Assembly: GCA_025200525.1 (NCBI GenBank) | Contig: CM045770.1 | Coordinates: 117,963,429 to 118,027,428 of the forward strand | DNA: 64,000 bases | Direction: 5' to 3' | From: Camellia lanceoleosa | Lineage: Eukaryota; Streptophyta; Magnoliopsida; Ericales; Theaceae | Part shown: in pieces, positions 12,855 through 51,350 of the stretch | Layout: each line of letters opens with the position of its first letter | How positions within the stretch are numbered: position 1 is the stretch's first letter | Program-made: the position numbers and the translations under genes | The notes under the pieces: generated by a model | The model's input: the letters and a program-made list of their open reading frames with translations, nothing else | Database searches by the model: none | What the model was told of the DNA's origin: nothing

Positions 12855-14492
12855 ACTTACTATGAGTTTCTCAATGTTTTACCAAGTTTTGGCTCAAAAG
12901 ATTGTGTTTTGAAGTGTTGAAATTGAGTTTTTAACTTGGGAAGCAAATTCGAAAATTCCAGAATTTGCACTCTTTGCTTGAACGTTGGAGTCTAAGCTCG
13001 AGCGAAGAATTCGAGCTCCCAGCACTTTTGCAGAGTTCGGGGTTTAACTTGAGCGACAAAATCTACTCTCAAGCAACCACCTTTACATTTGTACCTCCAC
13101 TCGAGCAAAGAAGTCTAAGCTCAAGCGTAAAATTCATGCTCCCATAAGTTTTACAAAATTTTGCAGATCGCTTGAGCGGAGACCTTTTTTATTCAGTCTT
13201 TGGCTCGAGTGACCGTCGAGCGCCTATCGAGCGAAAAATTCAAGCAACCAGTACTGTTGCAGACTTTGCAGACCGCTCGAGCGACCGATATTGCGCTTGA
13301 GCGGACTACCTATTTTTAAAAATTTGACTAAGTGTTTTAACTTATATTTTGGCATCCTAGGCATTCCTAAACCTTAATTAAGACATAATAATGAGGATAA
13401 AGATTAGAAACAAGCCAAGATAGAAAAATCAATGAGTTATGTGTTTTCTGAGCATGTGTTCAATGCACATTTGTTATGTGTTTGTATAGGTCACGCGCCA
13501 TAGGCTATCTGATTTGTTTGCTATGTCCATTTTGCTATCGGAGATATCTATGAGTAATAACTCTATAAAGCTATGTTAGATTATAACTATTTTCAGAATG
13601 TTGAGATATGATCTGTTTTATGAAATGCTATTTTATGAATAGTGAATGAGTGTCCAACTTTCTAAAATGTATTTGTGGCATCCTTAGTTCACAAGGCCTT
13701 CACCCGAGGGAAACAATACCGTAGTATATGTTTATATGGCCCTCGCCCGGGAGAAACAATACCATGGCTTATGATTATATGGCCCTTATCCGGTGGAAAC
13801 AATACCGTGGTTTATACATGGCCCTTGCCTAGAGGAAACAATAATGTGGCTACTTGTACACAAGATATAGACCTTTGAGGTCGTCGGTACCGGCTTTGCA
13901 TATGGGTCCCAAGACCAAGATGATATGATAGCTAATAAATGTACCACATATAACTGTTTATGATTTCTGGTTAAATATGTGAATCCAAATCTGTTTCTGA
14001 TATGAACTCTGATTCTTGAAATTGTTTGAACATCATTCATAAATCTTTTACTCTGTTGTTATTCACTAGGCTCCATCTCACTTTATTATTATGTATGTAT
14101 GTAGGTGACTGGGCACGTAACTAGGCTTAGAGTTGTTCGCCTGGAGTTCTTTTTTGTCAGCCAACCATAATGTCTCCCAATGAGGTTTCCTTTTTGTGGT
14201 GGTAAAGCCTTTGTGAATCATGTTAAAGATCTTTTTGTATTTCTTTTGTTAAGTTTGAACAAGTCTTTTGTAGGTCTGTATGTATGAATGGTGACGTAGG
14301 CATGACATCTTAATTATGGAAATTGAGATTTAAATTTTCTATGCTATGTATGTCTACACAGCTCTATGGACATATATGTTTGCTTTTGCTAGCCTTTATA
14401 TCTTGTTTAATTTGTTCAGAGACCTTTGGTAATCCCAGGATTATTGGCTGGTTATAGCACTAAACCTATAGGGGTGGGTTTGGCTCGTGACA
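12855..14492 (+). repeat. Element A 5' LTR, second fragment
   Basis: Corresponds to 27659 onward of the 3' LTR ('ttactat(g/a)agtttctcaa'). It contains decayed CTCGAGCG-type motifs (12975-13310) and four copies of a minisatellite unit (ggccct..cccggg..gaaacaataccatgg, 13691-13855), against two in the 3' LTR. Ends at 14492 with TTTGGCTCGTGACA. Open frames here are low-value and are not called. Confidence 0.88.
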
Positions 14493-14512
14493 GAGTGGTA
14501 TCAAAGTACAAG
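14493..14512 (+). promoter_or_regulatory. Element A primer binding site
   Basis: Directly after the LTR is gagTGGTATCAAAGTACAAG, a one- or two-base variant of the plant initiator tRNA-Met PBS (TGGTATCAGAGC). Confidence 0.85.
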
Positions 14513-14717
14513 TTATACCGCACACGCGAGTCCATATGAGCTATAGAATGTCCTAGTAAGAATTAGGGACATTACATCTGCATGTGTGAGTGTGTGTGAA
14601 ATATATGAACATCTCTGAACCAATATACATTGACACTAAAATGAAATGAACTAAAATTGAACACCGTGAAAAGAATTATTTGTCTATGTTTATTAGTGCT
14701 CTGTTTACCTATAGCAA

Positions 14718-15276
14718 ATGGAAAATACAATAAGTGATGGTACAGTTGAATCTTCCGAGACTCGGATGAACCGAATGGAATAAATGCTTGAAGCTTTGAC
14801 AGAAGCAATAATGCAACAACAAAGACAAAAACCTTTGCCTTCTCCACCTCCTTTGGTCCAAGTAGAACTGGTAAATAATGACATCATCAGCTTGACTCAG
14901 AAATTTAATAAGATGAAGCCACTGACTTTCTTGGGTGGAATTGAACCTTTAAAGGCTGAAACGTGGATGTTAGAAACTGAAAAGTTATTCGAAGTCTTTC
15001 CAAGTATCGAGACTCAGAAAGTTTTATTAGCCACCTATACCTTAAAAGACGAAGTCCGACATTGGTGGATGCTTGTCCGTGAAAGTAGTAGGACTTTGAC
15101 CTGGGATTAATTCAAAGAGATCTTCTATGAAAAATACTTCACTCAGTGTTTCCGAGATAAAAAGGTGTCTAAATTCCAAGAACTCAAACAAGGCAATATT
15201 TCAGTGGTCAATTATGAGGCCAAGTTCACCGAATTAGCCCATTTTTCCCCATATATGGTGGGCACGGATTATAAGA
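14718..15276 (+). pseudogene. Element A gag, 5' part (interrupted by CACTA element C)
   Basis: The first ATG (14718) begins MENTISDGTVESSETR but meets TAA at 14781. The frame resumes at 14784 and another TAA lies at 15108. The gag domain is recognisable from MKPLTFLGGIEPLKAETWM, LEVFPSIETQKV-like and KDEVRHWWMLV blocks, then SKFQELKQGNISVVNYEAKF and FTELAHFSPYM. The reading frame is cut at 15276, where element C inserted. The same frame continues on the other side at 22835. Confidence 0.85.
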
Positions 15277-15640
15277 CACTACAACAAAAAAGGGTTTTTA
15301 CGGCGCACAATGCACGCCGTAAAAACCCTTCTACGACGTGCAGGCGCGCGTCATATTATGACCAGTCATGAAAAGTCATTCACTTTCAACGACATGCTTC
15401 GTACGTCGTTAAAAACTATTGAACGACAGATTTTGTACGTCGTTATTACTTTTTCTCCGACATGCTATAGTACGCCGTTAAAAACTATTTAACGACAAAT
15501 TTTGTGCGTCGTCGTTACTTTTTCTATGACTACTTTTGCACGCCGTTAATTGATGAGACAAATAACGACACTGATTGCATGCCATAAAATATGTAATACG
15601 ACGACTTATTATGTCTACTGTAGAATATGTAATTTTTTTT
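15277..15640 (+). repeat. Element C left TIR, hairpin and subterminal repeats
   Basis: Just inside the TIR, 'agggtttttacggcg' (15291-15305) is perfectly inverted as 'cgccgtaaaaaccct' (15315-15329) around a 9-base loop. After it come five or more ~45-bp units containing 'cgtcgttaaaaactatt' and 'acgaca(g/a)attttgt(a/g)cg'. These are candidate transposase-binding repeats. Confidence 0.8.
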
Positions 15641-15904
15641 AAAAAAAATATTTGACTAATTTTGTACAATTTAACAAATATTACAAACAAGCATTCACAA
15701 AACATCAATCAACCACCAAAATATTATTTGAAACATCAAAAAGAAATTATATTCATAAATTATAAACATTCAACAATCGTTTATACATTTCAAACATTCG
15801 AAAACTATATCCTTAAGTTCTAAACTGTACAAAAAGTTTAAACCATCCAAAACTATGCATATCTAACTTTCTAAACATAAATTAAGAGATTATCTAAAAC
15901 TACC

Positions 15905-16048
15905 AACAACAGTTCCTATAGCAGTTGCTGCTGCAGCTTTAGCAAATCCACTTACTCCTATCACAAGGACGAGGGTGCCCAATGTATGTGTTAAGGCGCC
16001 TAAACCCGCGGCAATAGTTGAAGCAACTAGCCTTGTTGCATTTCTTGT
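15905..16048 (-). pseudogene. Captured exon resembling a DUF726/TMCO4-family protein
   Basis: On the minus strand, after a candidate acceptor (..CATGTAG at 16050-16049), a 48-codon open stretch reads VASTIAAGLGALTHTLGT, then LVLVIGVSGFAKAAAA and IGTVVGS. It is a small-residue-rich segment like the membrane region of plant DUF726 (TMCO4-like) proteins, as I recall that family. A possible donor (GGTAGTTT) lies near 15905. Only one exon is visible; the hydrolase part of the family is not present. The match is by memory of a compositionally simple segment, so it is moderate. Confidence 0.5.
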
Positions 16049-16606
16049 CTACATGACAAAGAAAACTTCACATAAGTACAAAAACTAACAACTAACGAAC
16101 AAAATATTACAAAAGTATAACAAACCATTTCACGAGACATTAAGGGTGCACAAGATCCCATGCTAAACAGAAATTTCACAAGACATTATATGCTCCCTGT
16201 GAGGCTATTTGGTACCAGCTTATATATTACAAAAGTATAACAAACCATTTCACATGATAATGACTTAGATTGGAATTTACAATCCACCAAAATATGCTTG
16301 AACCATTCAGCAAGTTCTAACTATTGCCCTATAGGGGAAAAAAATTCCATAAAATTGAAAACAAAAAATATTGCCAAGGCCATATAATTATTAACAAAAC
16401 CTTAGACATCAATCATCATCACACCACTCACAGTTGTAGTATACATAACATTAGCAATAGAGAATTTCTCACCAAAAATGATAAACACCCAAGTCGCTTG
16501 AGAGTTTAAAAAGATAAGACAAAGCAAAGCTTCACAAGTTGTCTAACTAAAAAAAGCCTTCACAACTTATGCACAAGGCTGAAGAAAACCTCCATTTTCA
16601 CCATAC
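16049..16606. other. Element C interior, nothing recognised
   Basis: AT-rich, intron-like sequence. The phrase 'ttacaaaagtataacaaaccat' occurs twice here (near 16110 and 16224) and again near 17272 and 17487, which suggests small internal duplications. Confidence 0.4.
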
Positions 16607-16721
16607 CTTTTTTTTTAGTCCAGGTGAAACATCATCTCCTATAAATACAAGAGGAACATCCACCTTCAACAAAGCATGAGATGGGGCCCTTATGAAGGTC
16701 ACATTGAGTCTTGCATCAGAC
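16607..16721 (-). pseudogene. Captured exon resembling a ribosomal protein L25/TL5-family protein
   Basis: Read on the minus strand, the 115-bp segment lies between a good acceptor (TGCATGCAG) and a good donor (AAG/GTATGG). It encodes LNVTFIRAPSHALLKVDVPL followed by VFIGDDVSPGLKKK. The 'VDVPLVF.GDDVSPGL' pattern is typical of the beta-barrel region of plant organellar L25-like proteins (bL25/TL5 family, 5S rRNA binding in bacteria). No flanking exons of that gene were recognised. Exon phase and junctions look intact, so this is a copy of genomic DNA rather than of cDNA. Confidence 0.6.
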
Positions 16722-17167
16722 CTGCATGCAGATGAAACTGAAACAAGTAGATATAGATAAAATCAGAATGTGACAAACTGAGAAGAACTTCAGATGATGA
16801 AACCATGTTAGAAGTATAAACAAATTCTCAAAACCAGAAGACATTAGATAGCAATTCCTAAACTAGAATCGAACAATGCTTCATGTGCCCCTAATCAACA
16901 GGAGTTCCTTTGAACTCCAACTAAACTATGTCAGTGATTAGTTTTTAAATTAGCAGAATTGAACCCCCTAACCTCTCCTTGCAAGCACTTATGTCTTGGC
17001 CCCACGCTGCTAGAGGCCACAAGGCCTTGGGCCTAACTAAACTACTTACACACACCAATTTAGGAATGGTTCAAGTCCATGGAGTTAAATTCTCACGCTT
17101 CCTAATTTGACAGCCTATGTACAAATAAACAGAAAAATAATCAAAGATGAAATTTAAATGGTAGCTT

Positions 17168-17597
17168 TGCCATGCCATGTTTCTGCAAGCATATTTCTAT
17201 GCCACTTGCAGTGGCAATAGTACTAATAAGATTATGAATTTAATAGATAAACCATATTGTAGTACTCATATTACAAAAGTATAACAAACCATATTGTACA
17301 ATCCACCAAAAAAATCAGGTTGTAATGACATGCTATGCAGACCACCAACCATAAATGAAAAAATAGAAAAAATCAAGTTATATGCCATGCCATGTTTCTG
17401 CAAGCATATTTCTATGCCACTTGCAGTGGCAATAGTACTCATAAGATTATGAATTTAATAGATAAACCATATTGTAGTACTCATATTACAAAAGTATAAC
17501 AAACCATATTGTACAATCCACCAAAAAAATCAGGTTGTAATGACATGCTATGCAGACCACCAACCATAAATGAAAAAATAGAAAAAATCAAGTTATA
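17168..17597. repeat. 215-bp tandem duplication inside element C
   Basis: The unit beginning 'tgccatgccatgtttctgc' at 17168 is repeated without a gap from 17383, to 'aaaaaatcaagttat' at 17596. The two copies differ by very few bases (for example actaata versus actcata), so the duplication is recent compared with the element's other internal repeats. Confidence 0.9.
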
Positions 17598-17611
17598 GGT
17601 GATTTCCAGAC

Positions 17612-17744
17612 CTGGAATTGGAATATTAATTTTTGGTGCCTGTGCAACCACTCCATGTCGTGTTCCTCTTGTAACAAAATTCAACCTTTTGCTTCTTCTT
17701 CTTTTCTTGCTCCTTCCTCTCCATTTCACGCTTCATGTCAACCT
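17612..17744 (-). pseudogene. Captured exon 4 of an unidentified gene (Lys/Glu-rich), frameshifted
   Basis: After an acceptor (TTTAAGTAG/AGG) the minus strand reads EVDMKREMERKEQEKKKKQK then VEF. It then shifts frame to continue as VTRGTRHGVVAQAPKINIPI, ending before a GT at 17611-17610. The phase (one base carried from the previous exon) fits the exon at 18567-18627, so I infer one source gene. I do not recognise the protein; a nuclear protein is possible given the basic/acidic stretch, but this is a guess. Confidence 0.45.
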
Positions 17745-18566
17745 CTACTTAAAAACATAGAAACCATGAGTGACTGGATTTTATGTTTAACAGAAATATA
17801 ATAGCATTAGCAACAAATTAGACACTGTCAAATAAGGAAGTTCATGCAGAGCTGTACAAATTAATAAACTATGGCTGCACATGAACTATACTATTCATGA
17901 AATAGTTCAAGCTTTGCTCAACAGAGGCAGATTCAAACTCATCAATTGGTGTTGATAAAAACAGAGCTAAGGCCATAAAAAAATAAAATTAAAAAAAAAA
18001 ACACCTCAACAAAGCATAAATTTAAAGAAGTGGCAATAATTGCAAATCAGTTGTCTCAAGTTGAAACCATCTTGGAGCTTCACATAGTCTAGTTTGTAGT
18101 TATTTTAGGATCTTACTATATGACTAGGATCACACTGAATTCCAAGAACTTATACTCCAAAAAATTGGATCAAGTTCTATAATTTGTAAATATAAAATCT
18201 AATTACTAATACCAGCATGCTTCTATAACTGAAGCTCCAACTTCACAGCTACTGTTAAAAAGTGATACAAGGGTACTTCACATTTTGAGTGATTGAACCA
18301 AGTCTACAGTGTGACCAAGCACAAATAATTCAGAATTTTAATTATTTTAAGCATAGATCAATGAACAATTCAGAATCAATCAAAGAAAAAAATGAACCAA
18401 CCAGGAATTGTCTTCGTAGGAATAAACAATTGATATGAAGCATTCAAGGAATAGCAAAGATATATATATACACAAATATATATTCATTTTCAATTTCCAC
18501 CCTCTTTTGTTACATGGCATATTTATGACTCATAAGGGATAAAACATGTTATTCGGTTCAGAGTAC

Positions 18567-18627
18567 CTCTGGCACCATTTGGTTGTTCCCACTTTGACAT
18601 TCGAGTTCCGTCAAATGCAGATGTGAC
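18567..18627 (-). pseudogene. Captured exon 3 of the same unidentified gene
   Basis: A 61-bp segment between CAATTTCAG and GTACTC on the minus strand encodes VTSAFDGTRMSKWEQPNGA. Its reading phase joins without a break to the exon at 18767-18818 upstream and 17612-17744 downstream. Confidence 0.5.
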
Positions 18628-18766
18628 CTGAAATTGGTTGATAGCAATGCCTTTAAAAGAATTTCATTATCAACAATGGGATCATAAAGAAATCCACAAG
18701 ACACATGTCACATATTAATTATCAATAAAATTGAACTAATAGCATGAATTGGTCAATGCAACTTAC

Positions 18767-18818
18767 AATTCCAAAAGGAAGCTCCTCCCCACTAGCAAGG
18801 ACCAAACCGGAGTATATT
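18767..18818 (-). pseudogene. Captured exon 2 of the same unidentified gene
   Basis: A 52-bp segment between TTAAACAG and GTAAGTTG on the minus strand encodes IYSGLVLASGEELPFGI. Both junctions follow plant splice consensus. Confidence 0.5.
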
Positions 18819-18964
18819 CTGTTTAATTTTTGAAGTAAAGGGAGTAGTACTAGCATGCTAATGATCTATAGAGAATGAGATGTGTATCTAACCACAAAAA
18901 CAATCAGAGCAACGCCATGAGATTAATTCTATATTCACAAAAGAGAACCAAAAGAAAAGCGCAC

Positions 18965-19078
18965 CGTGGAGCAGTTTTCCCATCCTTGTCATCATCAATA
19001 AGTGAAGCAGAAGTAGAATTTTGACCATTGGTGAGTGGGCCAGCGGTAATAGCTTTTACTCTAGGAATTCTTATTTTT
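18965..19078 (-). pseudogene. Captured exon 1 (first visible) of the same unidentified gene
   Basis: Minus-strand reading VKAITAGPLTNGQNSTSA then SLIDDDKDGKTAPR, ending with a split codon at a GTGCGC donor that is completed by the first base of the exon at 18767-18818. The 5' boundary is uncertain. Four consecutive frame-compatible exons make a captured genomic segment much more likely than chance open frames. Confidence 0.45.
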
Positions 19079-19982
19079 CTTTAGAACGTAATGCGGCGAT
19101 ACTAATACCCATGTTCCGCCATTTGTCCCGATCATGTAAATAGGCATGAAACTAGTAAATAGCATCTTGGTGTAAATGAAAATCATGCAATAGAAAACAT
19201 GAGCAAACTAATGATCTTGGTAAAGAAAGCAGCAGAATCGGATGCAAAAAACCATCATCATAGCGACAAATGAAGCGAGAGTTGATGTGGCAACATCAAC
19301 CTCATAAAGATCTTGAATATGTTAAAGAAAACTTGCACAAGCATCATCTTTACCACACAAGATGATTAATAATCCACTAACTACAAACTGAAATCCACCT
19401 AAAAGGGCCCACAAGATAATGGGTCATGTGAGGAAATATGGACCGAGAAAGGGCCCACAAGAACCTCATAATCAGCCAATATCACTTCTAGTGCCGGTCC
19501 ACCAACACTCAAAAGCGAAATGGGTCTAGGCCCAAAAAGAAAAAGCTAAAAATAAGGTTACATATCTTTCAATGTACTTAACCAGATATTTTTCAAGATA
19601 ATACAAGAAGAAAATGAAAATTTGAATTACAAGCTACAATAACCATATATGTTTTTTATGAATGGTCTACTACTCAATGTGAGTTTAAAATTTTCTTCAA
19701 CAAGATTGTTAAGAATGAATTTTGCCAAGATTGAACTCACTTTAAGAATGGTTAATCAATCATGTCCATTGCATTGCTTATTTGAATTATCTGAGAATGA
19801 TAATCCATTTTAGAAGATGGTGTTTTGTGTAGTTGATGCTGGTTTACTATTTACTTGGGTGACAATTGTTCTTTATTGAGAATATGATTGATAATCTAGT
19901 CAAACCTTTGGCAATTAAATTGTGAAAATGTTCATGAACAACCGTTGTTTTCTTGTCTTTCCATGCATATTTCTTCTACAAG
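19079..19982. other. Element C interior: junction zone and probable captured intron of NRPE1
   Basis: No coding exon is recognised. The last ~300 bp (from about 19650) look like intron sequence on the plus strand: T-rich, ending in 'ttgtttt(c)ttgtctttcc' and the acceptor ACAAG directly before the NRPE1 exon. Confidence 0.4.
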
Positions 19983-20585
19983 GCATCTCGTGACATGGAT
20001 ACACGATTTGGGATTAACAAAGGGCAAAGCGATTCTACTACTAAAGCATGGCTTGAGAAGATGAAAACCCTATTTATCAGAAAGGGTTGTGGATTCTCCT
20101 CACAGAGTGTTATTACAGGTGATGCATATAAAGGAGTCAATGAGATTGGGCTGCCTTTTGAAATTGCTCAACAGATAACATTTGAGGAGAGAGTTACTCA
20201 ATATAACATGCAGTATCTGCAGAAGCTGGTTGATGAAAAGTTGTGTTTAACCTATAGGGATGGTTTGTCAACCTACTCGCTGAGGGAAGGTTCGAAGGGG
20301 CATACTTTTTTAAGACCTGGTCAAGTGGTACATCGACGGATAATGGATGGGGATATTGTTTTCATCAATAGACCTCCAACAATGCATAAACATTCCCTGC
20401 AAGCTTTGTCGGTTTATGTTCACAATGACCATACAGTCAAGATCAACCCTCTTATATGTGGGCCACTTAGTGTTGATTTTGATGGTGACTGTGTCCATAT
20501 ATTTTATCCTCAATCCCTTGTTGCAAAATCAGAGGTTTTGGAATTGTTCTCTGTAGAGAAACAGTTGCTTAGTTCTCATAGTGCA
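19983..20585 (+). pseudogene. NRPE1: Captured fragment of NRPE1, largest subunit of RNA polymerase V
   Basis: The open frame (usable ATG at 19953, stop at 20613) has homology from an acceptor-like junction at 19982/19983 to about 20585. Blocks in order are TKAWLEKMKTLFIRKGCGFS, SSQSVITGDAYKGVNEIGLP, FEIAQQITFEERVTQ, LQKLVDEKLCLTY, LRPGQVVHRRIMDGD, INRPPTMHKHSLQA and VDFDGDCVHIFYPQSL. The last contains the DFDGD metal-A motif of the multisubunit RNA polymerase largest subunit. The DFDGDCVH/FYPQSL form and FSVEKQLLSSHS point to Pol V (NRPE1) rather than Pol II. Pol V makes scaffold transcripts for RNA-directed DNA methylation, the pathway that silences transposons. The piece covers only part of the core; after LLSSHS the homology stops and unrelated codons lead to TAA. 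About 200 codons are free of stops. It lies on the opposite strand to the other captured exons. Confidence 0.85.
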
Positions 20586-20954
20586 ACTAAAGAATGTATT
20601 TTGGACTCTTTTTAACTCTAAAATTAGACATTAACCATACAGAGGGAAACATAAAACTTAAACCTTCATCTCCGCAATACAGAGTAAACTCATTCCCCAT
20701 GTAGTGTACACAACCAAAGACCAACAAGAAAATAATAAAACAAAAATAACATGTGATTTTTGGCAACGCAAACTATACATATTAGCCATAATGAGATACA
20801 CAAAACTTTTGTGACTAATAAACACACACAAATTTCATCAACAAAATTGTTAGTTATATTCTAACACAAGCACAAATCACTACTCCCACATAAATCAATT
20901 TATAAGAATCTTCTTCTAACAAGAAAACTATTATTTATATATATGTGTACGTAC

Positions 20955-21044
20955 CTTATCGGAATGAAGATAGACTTTGTCTCTAAAGAGAAGAACAACA
21001 CTGGCCTCATCAAGAACACGGGTGAAAGCAGCGACTGAGTGTTC
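20955..21044 (-). pseudogene. Captured exon resembling mitochondrial calcium uniporter (MCU)
   Basis: A 90-bp minus-strand segment bounded by ATTTTCAG and GTACGTAC encodes EHSVAAFTRVLDEAS followed by [15 protein letters not shown]. Plant MCU proteins have a near-identical 'A.[21 protein letters not shown]' segment in the N-terminal matrix domain before 'VVDLV'. Exactly 30 codons in phase 0, no stop. The inner-membrane channel part of MCU (DIME motif) is absent. Confidence 0.68.
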
Positions 21045-22285
21045 CTGAAAATCAAATAATTGTAGTATTTCAAATAATTCATGTACAATTACAGACTCTC
21101 ACTGAAAACACAAGAACTGAAATACATGGAGTGACAAATACTAAAAAATGATTAATCAAAGATCCTAAATTTACTATATATACATACTTCCACAACTTCA
21201 ATTTGTGGATAAACACAAAAACAAACCCACCAAGAAAACTAAATTATATTCTCCTAAATTGTATTTGAGTCCAAAATTCTCCTAAATTATATTCTCAAAG
21301 ATCCAAAAGTAAAAAAAAAAATTTGGATCTAATAAACAAAATCACAGTAGGCCATCATTGATGCATTTTATCGAACATTTGACAGACAAGAAAAATGGGA
21401 TTTGAACTCTAATGAGAGAAACCAGACATCACAACAACACCCCTAAAAAAAATTCTAAAAAGGCACTTGGCAAGAAAAAAAATCAATTAGGGCATAGAAA
21501 TTGCAATTTATAGGGCAAAGAGAGACAAACACAATTTGTCAACAGAAAAAATAAGAAGCTGAAGAAGAGGGGAGAGAGAGAGAGAGAGTCCCCCCCTCCA
21601 GCGACCCTTACCCTACGGCCACGCCTAACAAACCCATGGCCACGCCCCTCCCTGCCTCATCTATGCCAAACACCTCTACCGTTCTTGCCATTCGCTACCT
21701 AGCTCATGCTTGACAATCGTTTGGGTATGCTATTTGGACTCTTGAAGTCTACTATTTGGATGTTGAATGAGAAGAGAAGAGAATAGATGAGTGCGTACCG
21801 TTGATTGTCACCGTTGCTGAATCAGTTTCATCGTACCGTCGAAGTGTGCACAAAGAGAGAGATTGAAACCCTACCCTTCCCTTCCATTCCCTTTTGAATC
21901 CTCTATCTTCTCCCCCTCTTCTCGTTTTCCTGTGAATACAATGAGATGAGGCTTGGGTGTGTTTATTCAGTAAAAGGGTCGGTCCAGTCTTTAAAAAAAA
22001 AAAAAAAAAAAGGCAGACTCTCTCTCTCTCTAACCCATCATCTTTCCTTTCCATTTCTTATTAAATTGTTAATGATCAAAGAATGAAAGAATAATTAGAA
22101 GAGGTATCCTCGAAAGTTTAGAAACCAACGAAATTTTTTCCAGAAAAATTGCAGGGCACTCTTATTTTCAAATAAGTTAGGGTTTAGAAATTGAGGGAGA
22201 GAGTAATGGTGGTGAGGGAGAGTAACTTACAGAAGTGAGTGAATCAACAACAATGGCAGCGCCGGTCAGAGAATTAGTTGCAGCG

Positions 22286-22323
<38 letters not shown>

Positions 22324-22380
22324 AAACCCTCTCCATTTCCATTCTGATTGGAGCAAAATAGTTATTTTGGGGGAAATATT
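21045..22380. other. Element C interior right of the MCU exon
   Basis: Mixed sequence with GA microsatellites (21571-21588 and 22289-22320) and an A-run (about 21993-22010). A GC-richer stretch at 21590-21720 ('ccacgcctaac', 'ccatggccacg') may be another host-derived piece, and the minus strand near 22260-22220 reads LTGAAIVVDSLTS before a GTAAGT donor-like site. Neither could be identified. Confidence 0.35.
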
Positions 22381-22429
22381 TTTTTTTGGGTGATTGGCAT
22401 CCCAAAATTTATTTTGGCGCCTTTGTTTT

Positions 22430-22831
22430 TATCATACAATTCACGACATGTACTGTGCGTCGTAAAAACGTAATACTTTTAACAGCAGGCGATGTGTGCG
22501 TCGTAAAAAATGTAATACTTTTAATGGCAGGCGTTGTGTACGCCGTGAAAAGTATTTTCTTTTCACGGCCGGCGTATGTGCGTCGTGTATAATTGATGTA
22601 TTAACGGCATGCCATATGCACGTCGTAGAAAGTATCATTATTTACGGCGTACATTGCAAGTCGTAAAAAAATCATTGCTATTACCATCCACGGCCTACGC
22701 AATAGACACGCCGTGGTTGGAAGAGTATTTACGACGTGCAAAAAAAGTAAGTCATAAAAATGAGAAACTACAACGTGCATTTATTGTATGCCGTTAATGT
22801 GGTGCCGTAAAAAGTCAATTTTGTTGTAGTG
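22430..22831 (-). repeat. Element C right subterminal repeats and TIR
   Basis: Repeated units 'gcgtcgtaaaaa', 'cgccgtgaaaagta' and 'cgtcgtagaaagta' at intervals of roughly 35-60 bp lead to 'gccgtaaaaagtcaattttgttgtagtg' split by the TIR. Orientation and motif match the left end. The open frames 22386-22797 are products of these repeats and are not genes. Confidence 0.75.
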
Positions 22832-22834
22832 AGA

Positions 22835-23352
22835 AAGCTTGAAAACTTGAAGAAGGACTGAATCTAGATGTGTTTGATTGGGTAAGTGTTTTAAAACTGC
22901 CCAAATATGTGGATGTATTTGATAGAGCTTTAATGGCTGAAGCCAACCTGGCTGCAATAAAACAAACAAAAGCTCTAATAACTGAATGGAATGGCAAGAG
23001 ATCTGAGTACAAGTTCAAAAAAGGCCATTCATTTGTTATGAACAAGAAGCAAAACACGGGATCTACTAGCAGCTCAAGTCAGAGTACTGGATCTACACAT
23101 GTTTGTTCAAAATGTGAAAGAAAACATAAGGTTGTTTATTATCGTGCTTCTAGTGCGTGCTTCTGGTGTGGCAAGATTGGCCACATAATGAAGGATTGCC
23201 TACTCACAGCTAAAAATGCCAACCGTCCTATGGCAAGTTTGGCCGGATCCGTTTCTGCACCAAGATCAAATGTAAGAACTAATGTTAGGAGAAAACCCTT
23301 GAGACAAGGTAGAGTGTTTGTACTTGTGCCCGGTGATGTACAGAACACTTAA
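22835..23352 (+). pseudogene. Element A gag, 3' part with zinc knuckle
   Basis: Continues gag across element C's insertion site (RKLENLK-like helix, then VLKLPKYVDVFDRALMAEAN and LAAIKQTKALITEW). The zinc knuckle CFWCGKIGHIMKDC is a complete CX2CX4HX4C nucleocapsid motif. The frame ends at TAA 23350-23352. Confidence 0.88.
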
Positions 23353-23355
23353 TCC

Positions 23356-24045
23356 GTGGTGTCAGGTATACTCCCTATTTGTGCTCAAAATAGATATGTG
23401 TTCATAGATTCTAGTTCTACACATTCATTCGTGTCGCATGTTTTTTCTCGCAAATTGACTAGACCACTAGAACCCATGAATTACTTGTTACCTGTATCTA
23501 CACCTTCTGGGGGTACTATGATGTGTGCCTATGTGTATCCTGCATGTGATGTCATGGTTGGAGATGTGTTATTATACGTTGATTTGCTGCCTTTAGACAT
23601 TGCTCATTTTGATTGCATATTGGGTATGGATTGGTTGACTAAGTATTGGGTAACTATTGATTGCGTGAATAAATCTGTTGTCTTCCGACCACCTGGTTTA
23701 TCTGAATTTGTGTTTGCCGGGAATGGGATAGTTCCACCTCCATGTATGATTTCTGCTTTGAAAACTGTTAAATTGCTTAGGAAAGGATGTCGGGGTTATT
23801 TGTGTAGTGTTTTAAACGTGACTTCTGATAGTCCTAATGTGGAAGCTATTCATGTAGTTAATGAATTTCCTGATGTGTTTCCAAACGAACTACCCATTGA
23901 TTTGATTGATAAAGAAATTGAATTTACCATTGAAGTAGTGCTTGAAACACAACCAATTTCCAAAACCCCTTATAGAATGTCAATCTCAGAACTGAAAGAA
24001 TTGAAAGTCCAACTTCAAGAATTGTTAGACAAGAAGTTTATCTGA
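23356..24045 (+). pseudogene. Element A aspartic protease region
   Basis: 230 codons with the retropepsin active-site block reading FIDSSSTHSFVSHVF and the later CILGMDWL. The catalytic triad normally reads D-[ST]-G; here the Gly position is Ser, so activity is doubtful. The C-terminal part leads into the RT linker (NELPIDLIDKEIEFTIEV, ETQPISKTPYRMS) and stops at TGA 24043-24045. Confidence 0.85.
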
Positions 24046-24684
24046 CCGAGCACTTCACCTTGGAGTGCTCCAGTTTTATTTCTTAAAAAGAAATATGTGT
24101 CTTTAAGACTATGTATAGATTATCGAGAATTGAACAAAGTAACTATCAAGAACAAATATTCACTACCCCGAAATAGATGATCTATTTGACCAACTCCAGG
24201 GAGCCCAAGTGTTTTCCAAAATTGATCTTCGATCCAAATACCACCAATTAAAACTTAAGACAGAAGACATAGAGAAATTGCTTTTCGGACTAGATATAGG
24301 CACTACGAGTTTTTGGTAATGCCGTTTAGGGTAACTAATGCACCTGCAGCATTCATGGACTTAATGAATAGGGTGTTCAAACAATACATTGATGAATTTA
24401 TAGTTGTATTTATTAATGATATTCTGATTTATTCTAAAAGCAGGGAAGAACATGAAGATCATCTAAGAACTACCTTACAGATCTTGAGAGAAAAGAAGTT
24501 GTATGCAAAATTTTCTAAATGTGAATTCTAGCTAGACAGTGTAACATTTTTGGGGTATGTAATCAACAAAGATGGCATTTTGGTAGATCCACAGAAAATT
24601 GAAACTATTGTGAATTGGCCAAGACCAACAAATGTGTCAAAAGTTAGAAGTTTTCTAAGACTTACTAGTTACTACTAAAGATTT
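24046..24684 (+). pseudogene. Element A reverse transcriptase, broken
   Basis: RT blocks appear in two frames: [18 protein letters not shown] before a shift near 24170, then [20 protein letters not shown] and [15 protein letters not shown]. The catalytic FIDD box reads FIND and the conserved PFG reads PFR, so the domain is dead even apart from frameshifts and a TAG at about 24529. Confidence 0.88.
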
Positions 24685-25237
24685 GTGAAAGATTTCTCCA
24701 AACTCGCTATGCCTTTGACACAGTTAGCACAGAAAAATACGTCATTTGATTGGAATGATCAAAGGGAATCTGCTTTCCAAGAGTTGAAGACCAAATTAGT
24801 AACTGCACTAATTCTGACTCTGCCTAATAGTACAGATGGATTCCAGATTTATAGTGATGTTTCATACAAGGGTCTAGAATGTGTGCTTATGCAAAAATGA
24901 AAATGTGATTGCCTATGCTTCTCGCCAACTTCGACCTTATGAAAAGAACTACCTAACCCATGACCTTGAACTAGCAGCGGTAGTGTTTGCGTTGAAAATT
25001 TGGCGACACTATCTTTATGGTGTAACTTGCGAAGTGTACACTAATTATAAAAGTCTCAAATATTTCTTTACTCAAAAGGAATTGAACATGAGACAGAGAC
25101 GATGGCTTGAGTTGATAAAATATTATAATTTACAGATTCTGTATCATCCAGGAAATGCAAATACAATTGCACTTGAGTTGAAAGTCTATTGGGAATTTTT
25201 CATGTTTGCTCACTGGCCAGAAATAATTGCTGTGTGA
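24685..25237 (+). pseudogene. Element A RNase H, broken
   Basis: Frames 24685-24900 ([33 protein letters not shown]) and 24881-25237 ([56 protein letters not shown]) overlap at a frameshift near 24895. The usual TDHKSLKY block reads TNYKSLKY. Confidence 0.85.
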
Positions 25238-26300
25238 TCTGGAAATGAATGAAATTGAAGTAGTTTTGCATGAACATGGTGAAATCCTAGCTGCCATTTC
25301 TGCTCAACCGACCATAATTGAGGAAGTTAAGGAAAAACAACTAGAAGATGAATTTCTGAAGAAGATTGTTAATGAAAATGAATCAAAATCGAGGCCGGGA
25401 TTTGTGTATGAAAACAATATGTTGAAATTTCAGGGTAGACTCTGTGTACCAGACCATTCTGAATTGAGAAAACGTATTATGATCGAAGCTCACAACTTTA
25501 AATTTGCTATGCATCCAAGGAATACAAGGATGTACCATGACTTGAAACAAAATTTCTAGTGGCCTGGAATGAAGAAAAGTATTACTAATTTTATGGCTAG
25601 GTGTTGGCATTGTCAACAAGTAAAAGCTGAACATCAACGACTCGCTGGATTACTTAAGCTACTTCCAATACTGGAATGGAAATGGGAGCACATTACGATG
25701 GACTTCATTGTTGGATTGCCTCGCTCCTCCCGAGGTATGGACTCTATCTAGGTCATTGTTGATCGTTTAACTAAGTTTACCCATTTTTTGCCTATTAAAA
25801 CTTTTTATAATGCGGATAAGTTAACTAACATTTATGTGAATGAGATTGTGAGATTGCACGATGTACCAGTATCCATTGTATCTGATAGAGATTCGAAGTT
25901 CACGTCAAGATTTTGGCAGAGTTTACAACAGGTTTTGAAAACTGAACTATGACTGAGTAGTGCCTATCACCCACAAAAAGACGGCCAATCTGAACGAACC
26001 AATCAAACTTTGGAAGATATGTTACGGATGTGTATGTTAGATTTCTAAGGGAATTGAGAGACTTACCTCTCTCTGGCCGAGTTTGTGTACAATAACAGCT
26101 ATCATTCAAGCATTAGAATGGCTCCTTATGAAGCATTATATGGAAAGAAATGCTGATCTCCAATTTGTTGGGCTGAAGTAGGTGATAGACCGTTATTGGG
26201 ACCAGAACTTGTGCAAGAGGCGACAAAGAAAGTGAAACTGATTCAACAGAGACTGAAAACTGCGCAAAGTCGTCAAAAGAGTTATGCCGATGTCCGAAGA
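25238..26300 (+). pseudogene. Element A integrase, broken
   Basis: N-terminal zinc-binding region (EAHNFKFAMHPRNTRMYHDL, then after a TAG WPGMKK and CWHCQQVKAEH) is followed by the catalytic core: [66 protein letters not shown] and YEALYGKKC. In-frame stops occur near 25557, 25749, 25950, 26047 and elsewhere. Confidence 0.87.
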
Positions 26301-26750
26301 CAAGACAGAGAATATGAAGTCGTGGATCATGTGTTTATTAAAGTAACTCCTATGAAAGGGCAAACATGATTTGGAGTGAAAGGAAAATTGGCTCCGAGAT
26401 ACATTGGCCCGTATGAGATTCTAGAGAAAATCAATCCAATAACATACCGAGTGGCCTTACCTCTAGTTATGGAGAATATGCACAATCATGTCTCAATGCT
26501 TCGGGATTATTTGAGAGATTCGTTACATGTGATTGAGCCAACTCATGTTCTTTTGAAAGATTATTATACGTACAAGGAATGACCAATCCAGATTATGAAC
26601 CGCCAAATCAAAAGACTAAGAAACAAAGAAATTCCGTTGGTGAAGGTTACTTGGAAAAATCATGAAAGAACTTATGCAACATGGGAGACCGAAAAGGATA
26701 TGATAAAGAGATACCCTGACTTGTTTCTTTTGGATCCGATATTCTTTTAA
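26301..26750 (+). pseudogene. Element A integrase C-terminus and chromodomain-like tail
   Basis: The GPY/F module RYIGPYEILEKINPITYRVA is followed by HVSMLRDYLRDS and, after a stop at 26580, a tail with PIQIMNRQIKRLRNKEIPLV, KVTWKNHERTYATWETE and MIKRYPDLF, ending at TAA 26748-26750. The tail is the same type as in element B and is what places A among the chromoviruses. Confidence 0.8.
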
Positions 26751-26785
26751 ACGAAAGTAATTCGAGTTTGGAGGACCAAACTCTT

Positions 26786-26798
26786 TAGGGGGGAAGAC
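26786..26798 (+). promoter_or_regulatory. Element A polypurine tract
   Basis: 'taggggggaagac' directly precedes the 3' LTR start TGTAACAGCCCC. Confidence 0.85.
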
Positions 26799-28673
26799 TG
26801 TAACAGCCCCGACCTATGATTAGCTTATGATCTTTGATTAAGAAGGCTTAATAAGTAATTAAGATGAAATTCTATGTTAATTACATGTGTTATATGTTAT
26901 TTGCATTTATATCTATCTGTCGTAGAAATATCTGATTGTGTTTCTGTTTTGTTCTACGAATTGAGGGCCTTATTGGCATTCGATCATGAAATTACCTTGG
27001 GTTATGTGTTATTTGAAATTTTTAGAACATTATAGTAGGTTCAATTAAAAATTTGATTTGGAACCAAATAATTAGAATTAAATAATGCTCTAGCTTAACT
27101 AAGACCATTAAACCAACCTATATAAGGCTTCTTGACTACAACACTCTCATTTTGTCATCTTAGAGAGCAAAACGTGAGAGAGAGAAAGAGAGAGAAGGGA
27201 AGAATTGAGTTCAACTAAGGAACTTGCTAGAGTATTGAGGGAACTTAAGAGGATAGTCCAGGAAGATTAAGTCTTTACACTTGAAAATTCAAAGCTTGAG
27301 GTAGGAATTCACTCCTTTAGTTACGTAGTTGTAGCACTTAATGCATGAGTTCAAGAGAATTAAGTAGATTAACTTGAGAATTAAGCTAAAGAAGTAGAAT
27401 TTGGGTTAAACCATCCATGCATGTTCATATCATGGAGTTTTGGAAGTTGATTTCAAAGTTTTCCTACATGCATGTTCATATTTTGGTCATGTTATTCGAA
27501 TTCAACTCCTCTTTGTGCTATACATCTCATTCTACCAAGATTTGGAAAGTTTGAACTCAAGGAATACATGTATGTTATGTTTTCAACATTTCAAGTTTAG
27601 TTTTGCTCAATTGACAAAGATTTTGGGCTTGATTTTGTGAAATGGTTTCGAATTCTTCACTTACTATAAGTTTCTCAATGTTTTACCAAGTTTTGGCCCA
27701 AAAGATTGTGTTTTGAAGTGTTGAAATTGAGTTTTTAACTTGGGAAGCAAATCTGAAAATTCTAGAATTTGCATTCTCCGCTCGAGCGTTGGAGTCTACG
27801 CTCGAGCGAAGAATTCGAGCTCCCAGCACTTTTGCAAAGTTTAGGGGTTAGCTCAAGCAGCAGAATCTGCGCTCGAGCGACCACCCTTACATTTTTACCT
27901 CTGCTCGAGCAAAAAAGTCCAAGCTCGAGCGTAAAATTCATGTTCCCAGAAGTTTTACAAGATTTTGCAAACTGCTCGAGCGACCAAAGTTGCGCTCGAG
28001 CGAAGACCTTTTTTACTCAGTCTTTCGCTCGAGTGACCGTTGAGCATTTGTCGAGCGAAAAATTCAAGTAACCAGTACTTTTGCAGACCGCTCGAGTGGT
28101 CGATGTTATGCTCGAGCGGACTGCCCTATTTTTGACAATTTGGCTAAGTGTTTCAACTTACATTTTGGTACTCTCATTGCATCCTAAGGATTCGTAAGCC
28201 GTAATTAAGACATAATAATGATGATAAAGATTAGAAACATGCCAAGATAGAAAAATAAATGAGTTATGTGTTTTCCGGGCATGTGTTCAATGCGCATTTG
28301 TTATATGTTTGTATAAGTCACAAGCCATAGGCTATCGGATCTGTCTGCTTTGTCCATTTTGCTATCGGAGCTATCTGTGAGTAACAACTATGTCAAGCTA
28401 TGTTGGATTATAAGTATTTTCAGAATGTTAAGATATGATCTGTTTTATGAAATGTTATTTTATGAATAATGAATGAGTGTCCAACTTTCTAAAATGTATT
28501 TGTGGCATCCTTAGTTCACAAGGCCCTCGCTCGGGGAAAACATACCGTGGCTTATGATCATATGGCCCTAGCCTGGGGGAAACAATACCATGGCTACTTG
28601 TGCACAAGATATGGACCTGTAGGGTCATCGGTACCGACTATGCATATGGGTCCTAGGACCAAGATAATATGGT
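26799..28673 (+). repeat. Element A 3' LTR, first fragment
   Basis: Starts TGTAACAGCCCCGACC. A TATA box (CCTATATAAGG, about 27116-27126) is followed about 45 bp on by a GA-rich leader ('gagagagagaaagagagag'), so this is the probable LTR promoter. A cluster of about twelve GCTCGAGCG-like motifs lies at 27775-28120 and two minisatellite units at 28515-28600. Open frames (27440-27640, 27769-28071) are by-products of this sequence. Confidence 0.9.
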
Positions 28674-45900: not shown

Positions 45901-46471
45901 GGGGTGTTGGAGGATAAGCATTGTCTTCCAGGAATATGAATCCAAGGAGGACTTTATGCAAGGAGGAGTAATCCTAGAAGGACTCTACACTTGGAGGAAA
46001 AAGAGTCCTACCAGGATTGTGCTACGCGAAACCTATATAAGCTCACCAATATCACCTTCGGAGAGGTAATGCAACTTTTGCTCCCTGAATACATTGAGCT
46101 TTTGCCTTCCTGTCTTGCTTACTGACTTAGGCATCGGAGAGGTTTCCGGCACACACCCGCCGGCTAGCTCACGTTTGTATTTTCAGGTGGTAGAACGACG
46201 TCGTACGAGGAACGCAGACTTGATCAACAGGATTATACGAGAAGGTGAATTTCTTTCCCGTACAATAACGGTGTGGTCAATTTTGGTTTCTATCACCTCT
46301 ACGACCCTCAATTTCAGTTTATTACAGAATACAGAATAGATTTTCCTACGATGAACAAATATAAATTCAAAAATGTATATAATCACATACTTAGCATCCA
46401 AATTCATATTAAGCACATAATCACAAGTGTAATTAAAGATTAACGGCATAACACAAAATGGGGTTGTCACA
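42987..46471 (-). mobile_element. Element F: solo LTR, Ty3/gypsy type, interrupted by G
   Basis: Plus-strand limits TGTCATGACCCG and GGGGTTGTCACA, flanked by CTGGT (42982-42986) and CTAGT (46472-46476), a 5-bp duplication with one mismatch. Without G it is about 2.7 kb. On the minus strand it ends GGGTTCGGGTCATGACA, close to A and E. A TATATATA box near 45333-45342 is followed by a GA-rich leader at 45260-45230, so transcription would run leftward. It has CTCGAGCG-like motifs (44465-44712) and an array of about fourteen GACCTTNGGTCC units (43580-44075). Confidence 0.85.
45479..46264 (+). mobile_element. Element G: solo LTR nested in F
   Basis: 786 bp from TGAGAGGGCAATT to CTTTCCCGTACA with a perfect 5-bp duplication ATAAC (45474-45478, 46265-46269). 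A TATA box CCTATATAAGC (about 46031-46041) lies in the distal part, and 'ttactgacttaggcatcgga' near 46120 resembles the U5-proximal motif seen in Tat/Ogre-type and other plant Ty3/gypsy LTRs. GC content is well above the surrounding F sequence. Open frame 46094-46339 overlaps its end and is not called. Confidence 0.85.
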
Positions 46472-50122: not shown

Positions 50123-51350
50123 CACTACAAAAAAAAGCACTTTTGGCGACTAAAATTAAATTTTTCGTCGCTGAAAGTAGGGCTTTTGGCGACTAAAATC
50201 GAATTAATTAGTCGCCAAAATCGTCGTAATTGCCGACTAAAGCAGTTTAGTCACCAAAGATGTGGGTTTTAGCGACTAAAAGGAACTTTGGTCGCCGAAT
50301 GTAGGCCTTTACCGACTAAATGTTGTTTAGTAGCCAAAGTCCTTTGTTTTGGCAACTAAATATGATTTAGTAGCCAAAAGCGATGCTTTTGGCGACCAAA
50401 AAAAGTTTAATCGCCGATTATAGTTGTTTTGCCGACAAAACCCAATTTAGTCATTTGAAAGATGAAGGTTTTGGCTACAAAAACAAAATTAGTAGCTAAG
50501 GTCAAGCATTGCCGACTAAAATGTACTTTAGTCGCCCAAAGGAGAAGTTTTGGCGACTAAAATTCAGTTTAGTCGCCAAATGTGCTGTCCTTAGGCCGAA
50601 TTTCATTGTTTTAGCGACAGAAAAGAAAGTAGTAGCCAAAAAATGTATAATTGGCGACTAAAATTGAAATTTAGTCGCCAAAAATGCTATCCATTTTTTT
50701 TTATTAAATAATTTATTTTTTGCATAACATATATTAAATAAAAATTAATTATTTATACATATATAGTTTTGTATTAACACCGGCGAATATAGTATATAAA
50801 TAATATATGTTGCATTAATATTTGTGTGAGGGTATAGTGGCGTAGTGGGCAAAGAGTGTTGGTAAGAGTTGTGAATGTTGGGAAGTAAGTGGTCATGGGT
50901 TTAAAACTTGGTACCAGCGGAGGCCAAAAATTTTTTTTTTCTGAAAAGGCTTTCAGCGACTAAAGTTATTAGTCGCCAAACGTTTAACTCCGAAAATTTA
51001 AATAATAAAAAACTGCTATTGGCGACGAACAGGTTTAGTCGGGAAATGTATTAATAATAAAAAAAAATTAACTATTGGCGACTAACAGTTTAGTTGCCAA
51101 AGGTATACTTTCCAAAAATGAAATTGACTTGCGGCGACAAATTTTTTAGTCGCTGAATACCTGTCTATTGGCGACTAAAAACCTGTTAGTCGCCAAAGCT
51201 ATTCGCGACCAGATATTGGCGACTACAGCGGCAACTAAAATTTTTAGTCGGGAAAAGTGGAAAATCGACATTTGGCGACTAAAAATTGACTTTTGGCGAC
51301 TAAATTGGCGACTAAAAATTTAGTCGCCAAAAGTGTATTTTCTTGTAGTG
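50123..51350. mobile_element. Element H: non-autonomous CACTA transposon dense in GGCGACTAAA repeats
   Basis: 1228 bp starting CACTACAAAAAAAAGCAC and ending GTGTATTTTCTTGTAGTG, with 3-bp duplications AAA on both sides (50120-50122, 51351-51353). The inverted ends match over about 30 bp with few mismatches (CACTACAA, then CACTTTTGGCGACTAAA). About forty variants of GGCGACTAAA or TTTAGTCGCC in both orientations fill the two arms. The middle (50700-50930) is different and holds a tRNA-like A box and B box (see finding). No open frame. Confidence 0.9.
50834..50910 (+). promoter_or_regulatory. RNA polymerase III-like A and B boxes inside element H
   Basis: TGGCGTAGTGG (50838-50848) fits the tRNA/SINE A-box consensus TRGYNNARNNG. 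GGTTTAAAACT (50898-50908) is one or two bases from the B-box GGTTCRANNCC, about 50 bp downstream. The wording 'gtatagtggcgtagtggg' resembles 5' ends of plant tRNA-derived SINEs. Activity is not shown by sequence. Confidence 0.4.

Follow-up and report, generated by a model that had tools for sequence, protein, structure and literature searches.

A CACTA element in Camellia lanceoleosa carries an exon of NRPE1, the gene for the largest subunit of RNA polymerase V, as one of several host-gene fragments

Introduction

Pack-CACTA and Pack-TYPE elements are known in Arabidopsis and rice (PMC13317346; PMC8903248), and a review reports that, in maize, sequences captured in this way can give rise to small interfering RNAs (siRNAs) acting on the donor genes (PMC13317346). 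The soybean CACTA element Tgm-Express1 (5.7 kb) contains five unrelated host gene fragments, which are spliced into chimeric transcripts (PMC1947982). Rice CACTA elements carry miR820, whose precursor possibly came from the DRM2 gene and which lowers OsDRM2 (PMC3459959).

The DNA analyzed here (the window) is a 64,000-nucleotide stretch of Camellia lanceoleosa contig CM045770.1, in which a CACTA element carries an exon of NRPE1, a gene of the RNA-directed DNA methylation (RdDM) pathway. Like the Pack-CACTA and Pack-TYPE elements, this element has CACTA ends and host gene pieces aboard, with no transposase found, whereas it differs from those of Arabidopsis and rice in holding pieces of several genes, one of them from the silencing pathway, and in its Camellia host (PMC13317346; PMC8903248). 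It shares with Tgm-Express1 a comparable size and unrelated host gene fragments; however, Tgm-Express1 is reported from a gene intron with proven chimeric transcripts (PMC1947982), while one cargo of the Camellia element is NRPE1, in antisense. Like the miR820 CACTA elements of rice, it contains exon and intron sequence related to an RdDM gene, but miR820 is described as a processed small RNA with a fold-back precursor, a shown effect, and coevolution (PMC3459959), and no hairpin was found in the Camellia element. Like the Camellia element, VANDAL transposons are suspected of acting against host silencing, but through VANC, a dedicated anti-silencing protein with sequence specificity (PMC5735166, PMC10398659); the NRPE1 fragment bears no sign of protein-level constraint. 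A piece of an RdDM gene in a CACTA element thus has a precedent in miR820/DRM2 (PMC3459959). Searches of open-licence papers turned up none on an NRPE1 fragment in a transposon.

Transposons that hold parts of silencing genes offer natural test cases for whether such elements counter RdDM by means of RNA. The anatomy of the Camellia element allows a clear test, since the orientation of the NRPE1 copy predicts antisense and small RNAs could be assigned to the copy because it differs from its parent at known sites.

Results and Discussion

Structure and setting of the CACTA element

The first-pass annotation had set the NRPE1 piece within an intact-ended CACTA element flanked by a target-site duplication, and this is borne out by terminal inverted repeats of 13 bp and an AGA/AGA duplication. 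The features are as follows.

15277..22831, no strand: CACTA element, 7,555 bp, with terminal inverted repeats and AGA/AGA duplication; transposase domain not found
15277..15289, plus: left terminal inverted repeat CACTACAACAAAA, 13/13 bp the same as the right end
22819..22831, minus: right terminal inverted repeat CACTACAACAAAA, inverted, 13/13 bp the same as the left end
15274..15276, no strand: left target-site duplication AGA, directly outside the left terminal inverted repeat
22832..22834, no strand: right target-site duplication AGA, directly outside the right terminal inverted repeat
15300..15546, no strand: left subterminal motif array, 8 motifs, tandem repeats
22457..22737, no strand: right subterminal motif array, 8 motifs, tandem repeats
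12855..28671 (approximate), no strand: LTR retrotransposon, probably of the Gypsy type, in which the CACTA element is inserted

Of the 25 matches of the subterminal motif in the window, 9 are outside the element; of the 16 within it, the left 350 bp and the right 450 bp contain 8 each, with none between. A six-frame Pfam scan with X at stops, which a strongly decayed domain could escape, found no transposase domain in the element; RNA_pol_Rpb1_2 was the sole domain above the cut-off, and the other match, Phage_Gp23 (E = 0.12), fell below it. Terminal inverted repeats, a 3-bp target-site duplication, subterminal repeats at both ends, no detected transposase domain, and captured genomic fragments including an intron together agree with a Pack-CACTA element. 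The surrounding retrotransposon has LTR direct repeats that are approximately 85 to 90% identical and contains an RVP_2 protease domain (Pfam), from whose usual occurrence we presume it to be Gypsy-type. The CACTA element also contains a perfect 215-bp tandem duplication (positions 17168 to 17597, 100% identical) that looks recent.

Identity and genomic source of the NRPE1 exon

19983..20582, plus: NRPE1 exon of 200 codons, active-site segment with DFDGD, frame intact (phmmer, Pfam, and protein alignments)
19900..19982, plus: 3' part of an NRPE1 intron, ending in a pyrimidine-rich stretch and AG (residues 415 to 442 of P0002)
19995..20615, plus: ORF of 206 amino acids from ATG to stop, predicted protein P0121 (ORF list; the P0121 cluster has 3 members)

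About 200 open codons with four motif blocks had been noted in the first-pass annotation, and all of them are present: the open frame at 19938 to 20615 on the plus strand contains FIRKGCGFS, SVITGDAY, INRPPTMHKHSLQA, and VDFDGDCVHIFYPQSL. From position 19983 on, it aligns without gaps with the largest subunit of Pol V (8hyj; phmmer 340.9 bits, E = 2.7e-101), and Pfam identifies RNA_pol_Rpb1_2 in it (E = 2.3e-33), scores that exclude a chance resemblance to NRPE1. An origin from NRPB1 or NRPD1 is ruled out by score, the piece reaching 341 bits with Pol V versus 99 with Pol IV and 88 with the best RPB1 (3h0g), so that the original assignment to NRPE1 stands. Among the 120 of 349 matches listed, the best identities to full-length proteins were those to NRPE1 of Camellia sinensis (96%), the nearest relative, and of C. 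fascicularis (95%), and the top match by E-value was a Heracleum protein of 2,803 amino acids (72%). The homology stops at or about codon 200 (position 20582) and is followed by non-NRPE1 residues; a span drawn to 20585 is therefore upheld as far as 20582, its last codon being a G>A change where 91 of 91 NRPE1 segments have G. The piece comprises one Rpb1_2-type segment out of an NRPE1 of approximately 2,000 residues, and not a full-length subunit with all its domains.

The C. sinensis NRPE1 model P0002, which reads through an intron, has 28 residues ahead of the exon that are absent from P0003 and P0004; P0004 joins the neighboring exons directly, and P0003 has a different insert at the same place. 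Window positions 19900 to 19982 match these 28 extra residues, the match being broken by a one-base difference. The element thus carries at least 83 bp of the NRPE1 intron before the exon, with the acceptor AG kept, and the source was therefore genomic DNA rather than spliced mRNA, which rules out a cDNA (retro-) origin. Elsewhere in the window, positions 46094 to 46324 show 48% identity over 82 residues to an N-terminal part of P0002 that is missing from P0003 and P0004; this is probably a repeat taken into the P0002 gene model and not NRPE1.

Other cargo on the opposite strand

The finding new to this analysis is that NRPE1 is one of several host-gene cargoes in the element. The remaining recognized cargo lies on the minus strand.

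21800..21930, minus: leader of the opposite-strand unit, common to Camellia model P0168 (tblastn 80.6% over 36 residues, E = 1.4e-12)
20955..21044, minus: coding-like block a, flanked by AG and GT, common to P0167, P0168, and P0285
18964..19130, minus: coding-like block b1, with a one-base frameshift, common to P0167 and P0168 (two overlapping tblastn pieces in different frames)
18758..18823, minus: PNGase-like gene fragment 1, matching P0170, P0171, P0173, P0175, and P0202
18565..18627, minus: PNGase-like gene fragment 2, matching P0170, P0171, P0173, P0175, and P0202
17598..17748, minus: coding-like block c, with a one-base frameshift relative to P0169 (40/44 identical with a frame-joined query; halves in different frames)
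16610..16720, minus: exon fragment of bL25m, a mitochondrial ribosomal protein (PDB phmmer E = 4.1e-11; 35/37 identical to Camellia P0180 and P0174)
15893..16048, minus: block d, terminal exon-like, recurring in 12 Camellia predicted proteins

A second tblastn piece overlaps the first one of the leader; it is weaker (E = 0.001) and is broken by a stop in the window. The two exons are labelled PNGase-like by way of P0171, a protein that they match and in which a Rad4 transglutaminase-like domain is annotated. P0171 shares 61% identity over 170 residues with P0167 of C. sinensis, which its source names PNGase-like and in which the same domain scores just above the cut-off. Blocks a, b1, and c may be calcium-uniporter-like, telomere-repeat-binding-like, and SAP30BP/HCNGP-like, respectively; Pfam gave nothing above the cut-off for P0169, P0285, and P0168. 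A PDB search of the minus frames returned nothing in two of the three. On the plus strand, no cargo besides NRPE1 was recognized by Pfam in three frames or by a PDB sequence search of the two plus frames without NRPE1, and 120 proteins compared with the window gave 0 plus-strand and 132 minus-strand matches, a count biased by the minus-strand query with which the set had been found.

Blocks a and b1 occur in this order in P0167, where they are consecutive, and in P0168, where 16 other residues separate them; both proteins continue past a and b1 into other cargo, and P0168 also has the leader at 21800 to 21930. The leader and the terminal block d are also present in other Camellia gene models, where the cargo differs. 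All 12 proteins matched by block d are labelled Camellia (P0222, P0268, and P0279 appear to represent a single locus), and in 11 of them the block lies within the last 60 residues. Pfam, run on 9 of the 12, found an unrelated domain above the cut-off in four, namely PI4K_N (P0243), GH127 (P0284), TRAP_beta (P0273), and HlyIII (P0272), and none in P0185, P0222, P0252, P0276, and P0281. We infer from these sequences a Camellia CACTA family with repeated gene capture.

Substitutions in the NRPE1 copy

Counted at the protein level, 8 of the 200 residues of the copy are changed relative to its presumed parent. The comparison set consisted of 91 distinct non-Camellia NRPE1 segments obtained from 117 of the 120 listed matches, the 3 Camellia entries being set aside. 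In these segments, 87 of the 200 columns are invariant, and three of the eight changes fall on invariant columns, at R41, T134, and A164, the last adjoining DFDGD; six of the eight new residues are present in none of the 91 segments. Among the relatives (90 of the 91 segments, those with 5 to 40 differences), columns invariant in the rest account for 14 of 2,278 differences, and 90 of the 2,278 residues do not occur in any other segment. The placement of the eight changes was indistinguishable from random (P = 0.18), a result based on few changes and on relatives that share descent, so that their counts are not independent; a previous calculation on 201 columns and 9 changes yielded a P value of 0.23. 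An early comparison with a hand-picked set (P0005, P0006, P0007, P0008, and P0012, with the Camellia protein P0004 left out), in which 3/8 versus 6/76 gave a P value of 0.037, was replaced by the 91-segment test. Selection on the protein encoded by the NRPE1 piece is not supported at the protein level with these eight changes.

The cargo pieces have diverged to a similar degree (8/200 in NRPE1, 2/37 in bL25m, and 4/44 in block c). Each of the eight NRPE1 changes has a single one-step ancestral codon, and six of them are C>T or G>A, with four in CG, two in CHG, and none in CHH contexts; the other two are A>G. CHH sites account for 127 of the 160 nonsynonymous opportunities, and the probability of six out of six being symmetric is 7.7e-5, for a pattern that had been noticed before the test. 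The CpG observed/expected ratio, compared within this DNA only, is 0.33 for the NRPE1 fragment and 0.55 for the CACTA element, against 0.44 for a part of the retrotransposon and 0.63 for the whole window. The substitution pattern and low CpG fit past methylation of the copy, although they are not a methylation measurement. The NRPE1 piece thus seems to have been methylated in the past and to be under no constraint. This suggests that carrying part of its silencer does not of itself let an element escape silencing.

Passenger cargo and alternative explanations

The NRPE1 exon and its adjoining intron are most likely passenger cargo, one of several host-gene fragments decaying without selection on protein, and we hold this view with considerable confidence. 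It was the last of three options offered in the first-pass annotation and is favored by the presence of cargo from several genes and by the pattern of transitions at CG and CHG sites. The CACTA family would have picked up genomic DNA between its ends by Pack-CACTA transduplication, and cytosine methylation of the copy would then have led to C-to-T loss at CG and CHG sites. The NRPE1 frame may have survived intact because the piece is short and presumably fairly young. Transcription of the opposite-strand unit would give a precursor RNA that includes antisense NRPE1, a part that splicing would normally remove. Two observations weigh against passenger cargo: the frame is intact over 200 codons with a predicted protein, P0121, whereas b1 and c are frameshifted, and NRPE1 alone among the recognized cargo runs the other way, at a position that would favor antisense. 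An anti-silencing role of the piece is conceivable but has no backing from selection, and the data are best explained by passenger cargo.

An opposite-strand transcript could yield antisense NRPE1 that pairs with the mRNA, giving small RNAs that lower Pol V and ease silencing of the family; we consider this unlikely. The NRPE1 exon is the only recognized cargo in the opposite orientation and sits between block a (20955 to 21044) and block b1 (18964 to 19130), the order of which is the same in P0167 and in P0168 with its leader, and because of this position antisense NRPE1 in a transcript of the minus-strand unit is plausible. The block a exon keeps AG and GT at its borders; the triplet before the b1 homology is CGG, and the acceptor used there by relatives may have been lost in this copy. 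As many as 427 of 580 21-mers are untouched by the eight amino-acid changes, an upper bound in which only protein-level changes are counted. Rice offers a precedent, a CACTA-borne miR820 that lowers OsDRM2 (PMC3459959). However, a miR820-like fold-back precursor is not supported: fold z-scores for 19900 to 20620 were 0.31 (antisense) and -0.15 (sense) with 20 shuffles each, so no hairpin appeared; the inverted pairs near the exon numbered only two, both weak (18 to 21 nt, 76 to 78%), with no long inverted repeat and no arm within the exon; and no Rfam family matched at the gathering score. The CG/CHG transitions further suggest that the copy itself was methylated, and with cargo from several genes one silencing gene is likely a chance catch. 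Lowering NRPE1 would also act genome-wide, so that the benefit to a single element such as this one would be weak. What can be retained of the small-RNA proposal is its anatomy, that is, the other recognized cargo on the opposite strand and NRPE1 between two blocks. There is a small chance that this Camellia CACTA family holds an antisense NRPE1 exon inside its own spliced unit, each transcript carrying RNA against its silencing polymerase, in what would be a second independent RNA-based counter-attack on RdDM by CACTA elements after rice miR820/DRM2.

Use of the fragment as an exon in chimeric host transcripts, like the cargo of soybean Tgm-Express1, is quite improbable. The acceptor AG is retained, Camellia gene models containing the family's blocks are chimeric, and Tgm-Express1 cargo is described as being spliced as extra exons (PMC1947982). 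But the NRPE1 piece runs antisense to the unit of the element itself, which is surrounded by a retrotransposon rather than by a known gene intron.

That the 206-aa ORF is translated into a truncated competitor interfering with Pol V assembly is very improbable in spite of the intact frame, ATG, and DFDGD motif of P0121, as it covers one Rpb1_2-type segment of a protein of approximately 2,000 residues and is changed at the invariant R41, T134, and A164, the last beside DFDGD, and a selected competitor is not supported, since the changes hit invariant columns at about the frequency given by random placement.

In several proteins block d is fused to unrelated genes, and numerous chimeras produced by transposons may be present among the gene models of tea. 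The gene model of P0167, which contains blocks a and b1 of the element family (18964 to 21044, minus strand), may be one such transposon chimera. A second small CACTA-like element of 1,228 bp lies at 50123 to 51350 in the window, with ends CACTACAAAAAAA and CACTACAAGAAAA and flanks AAA/AAA.
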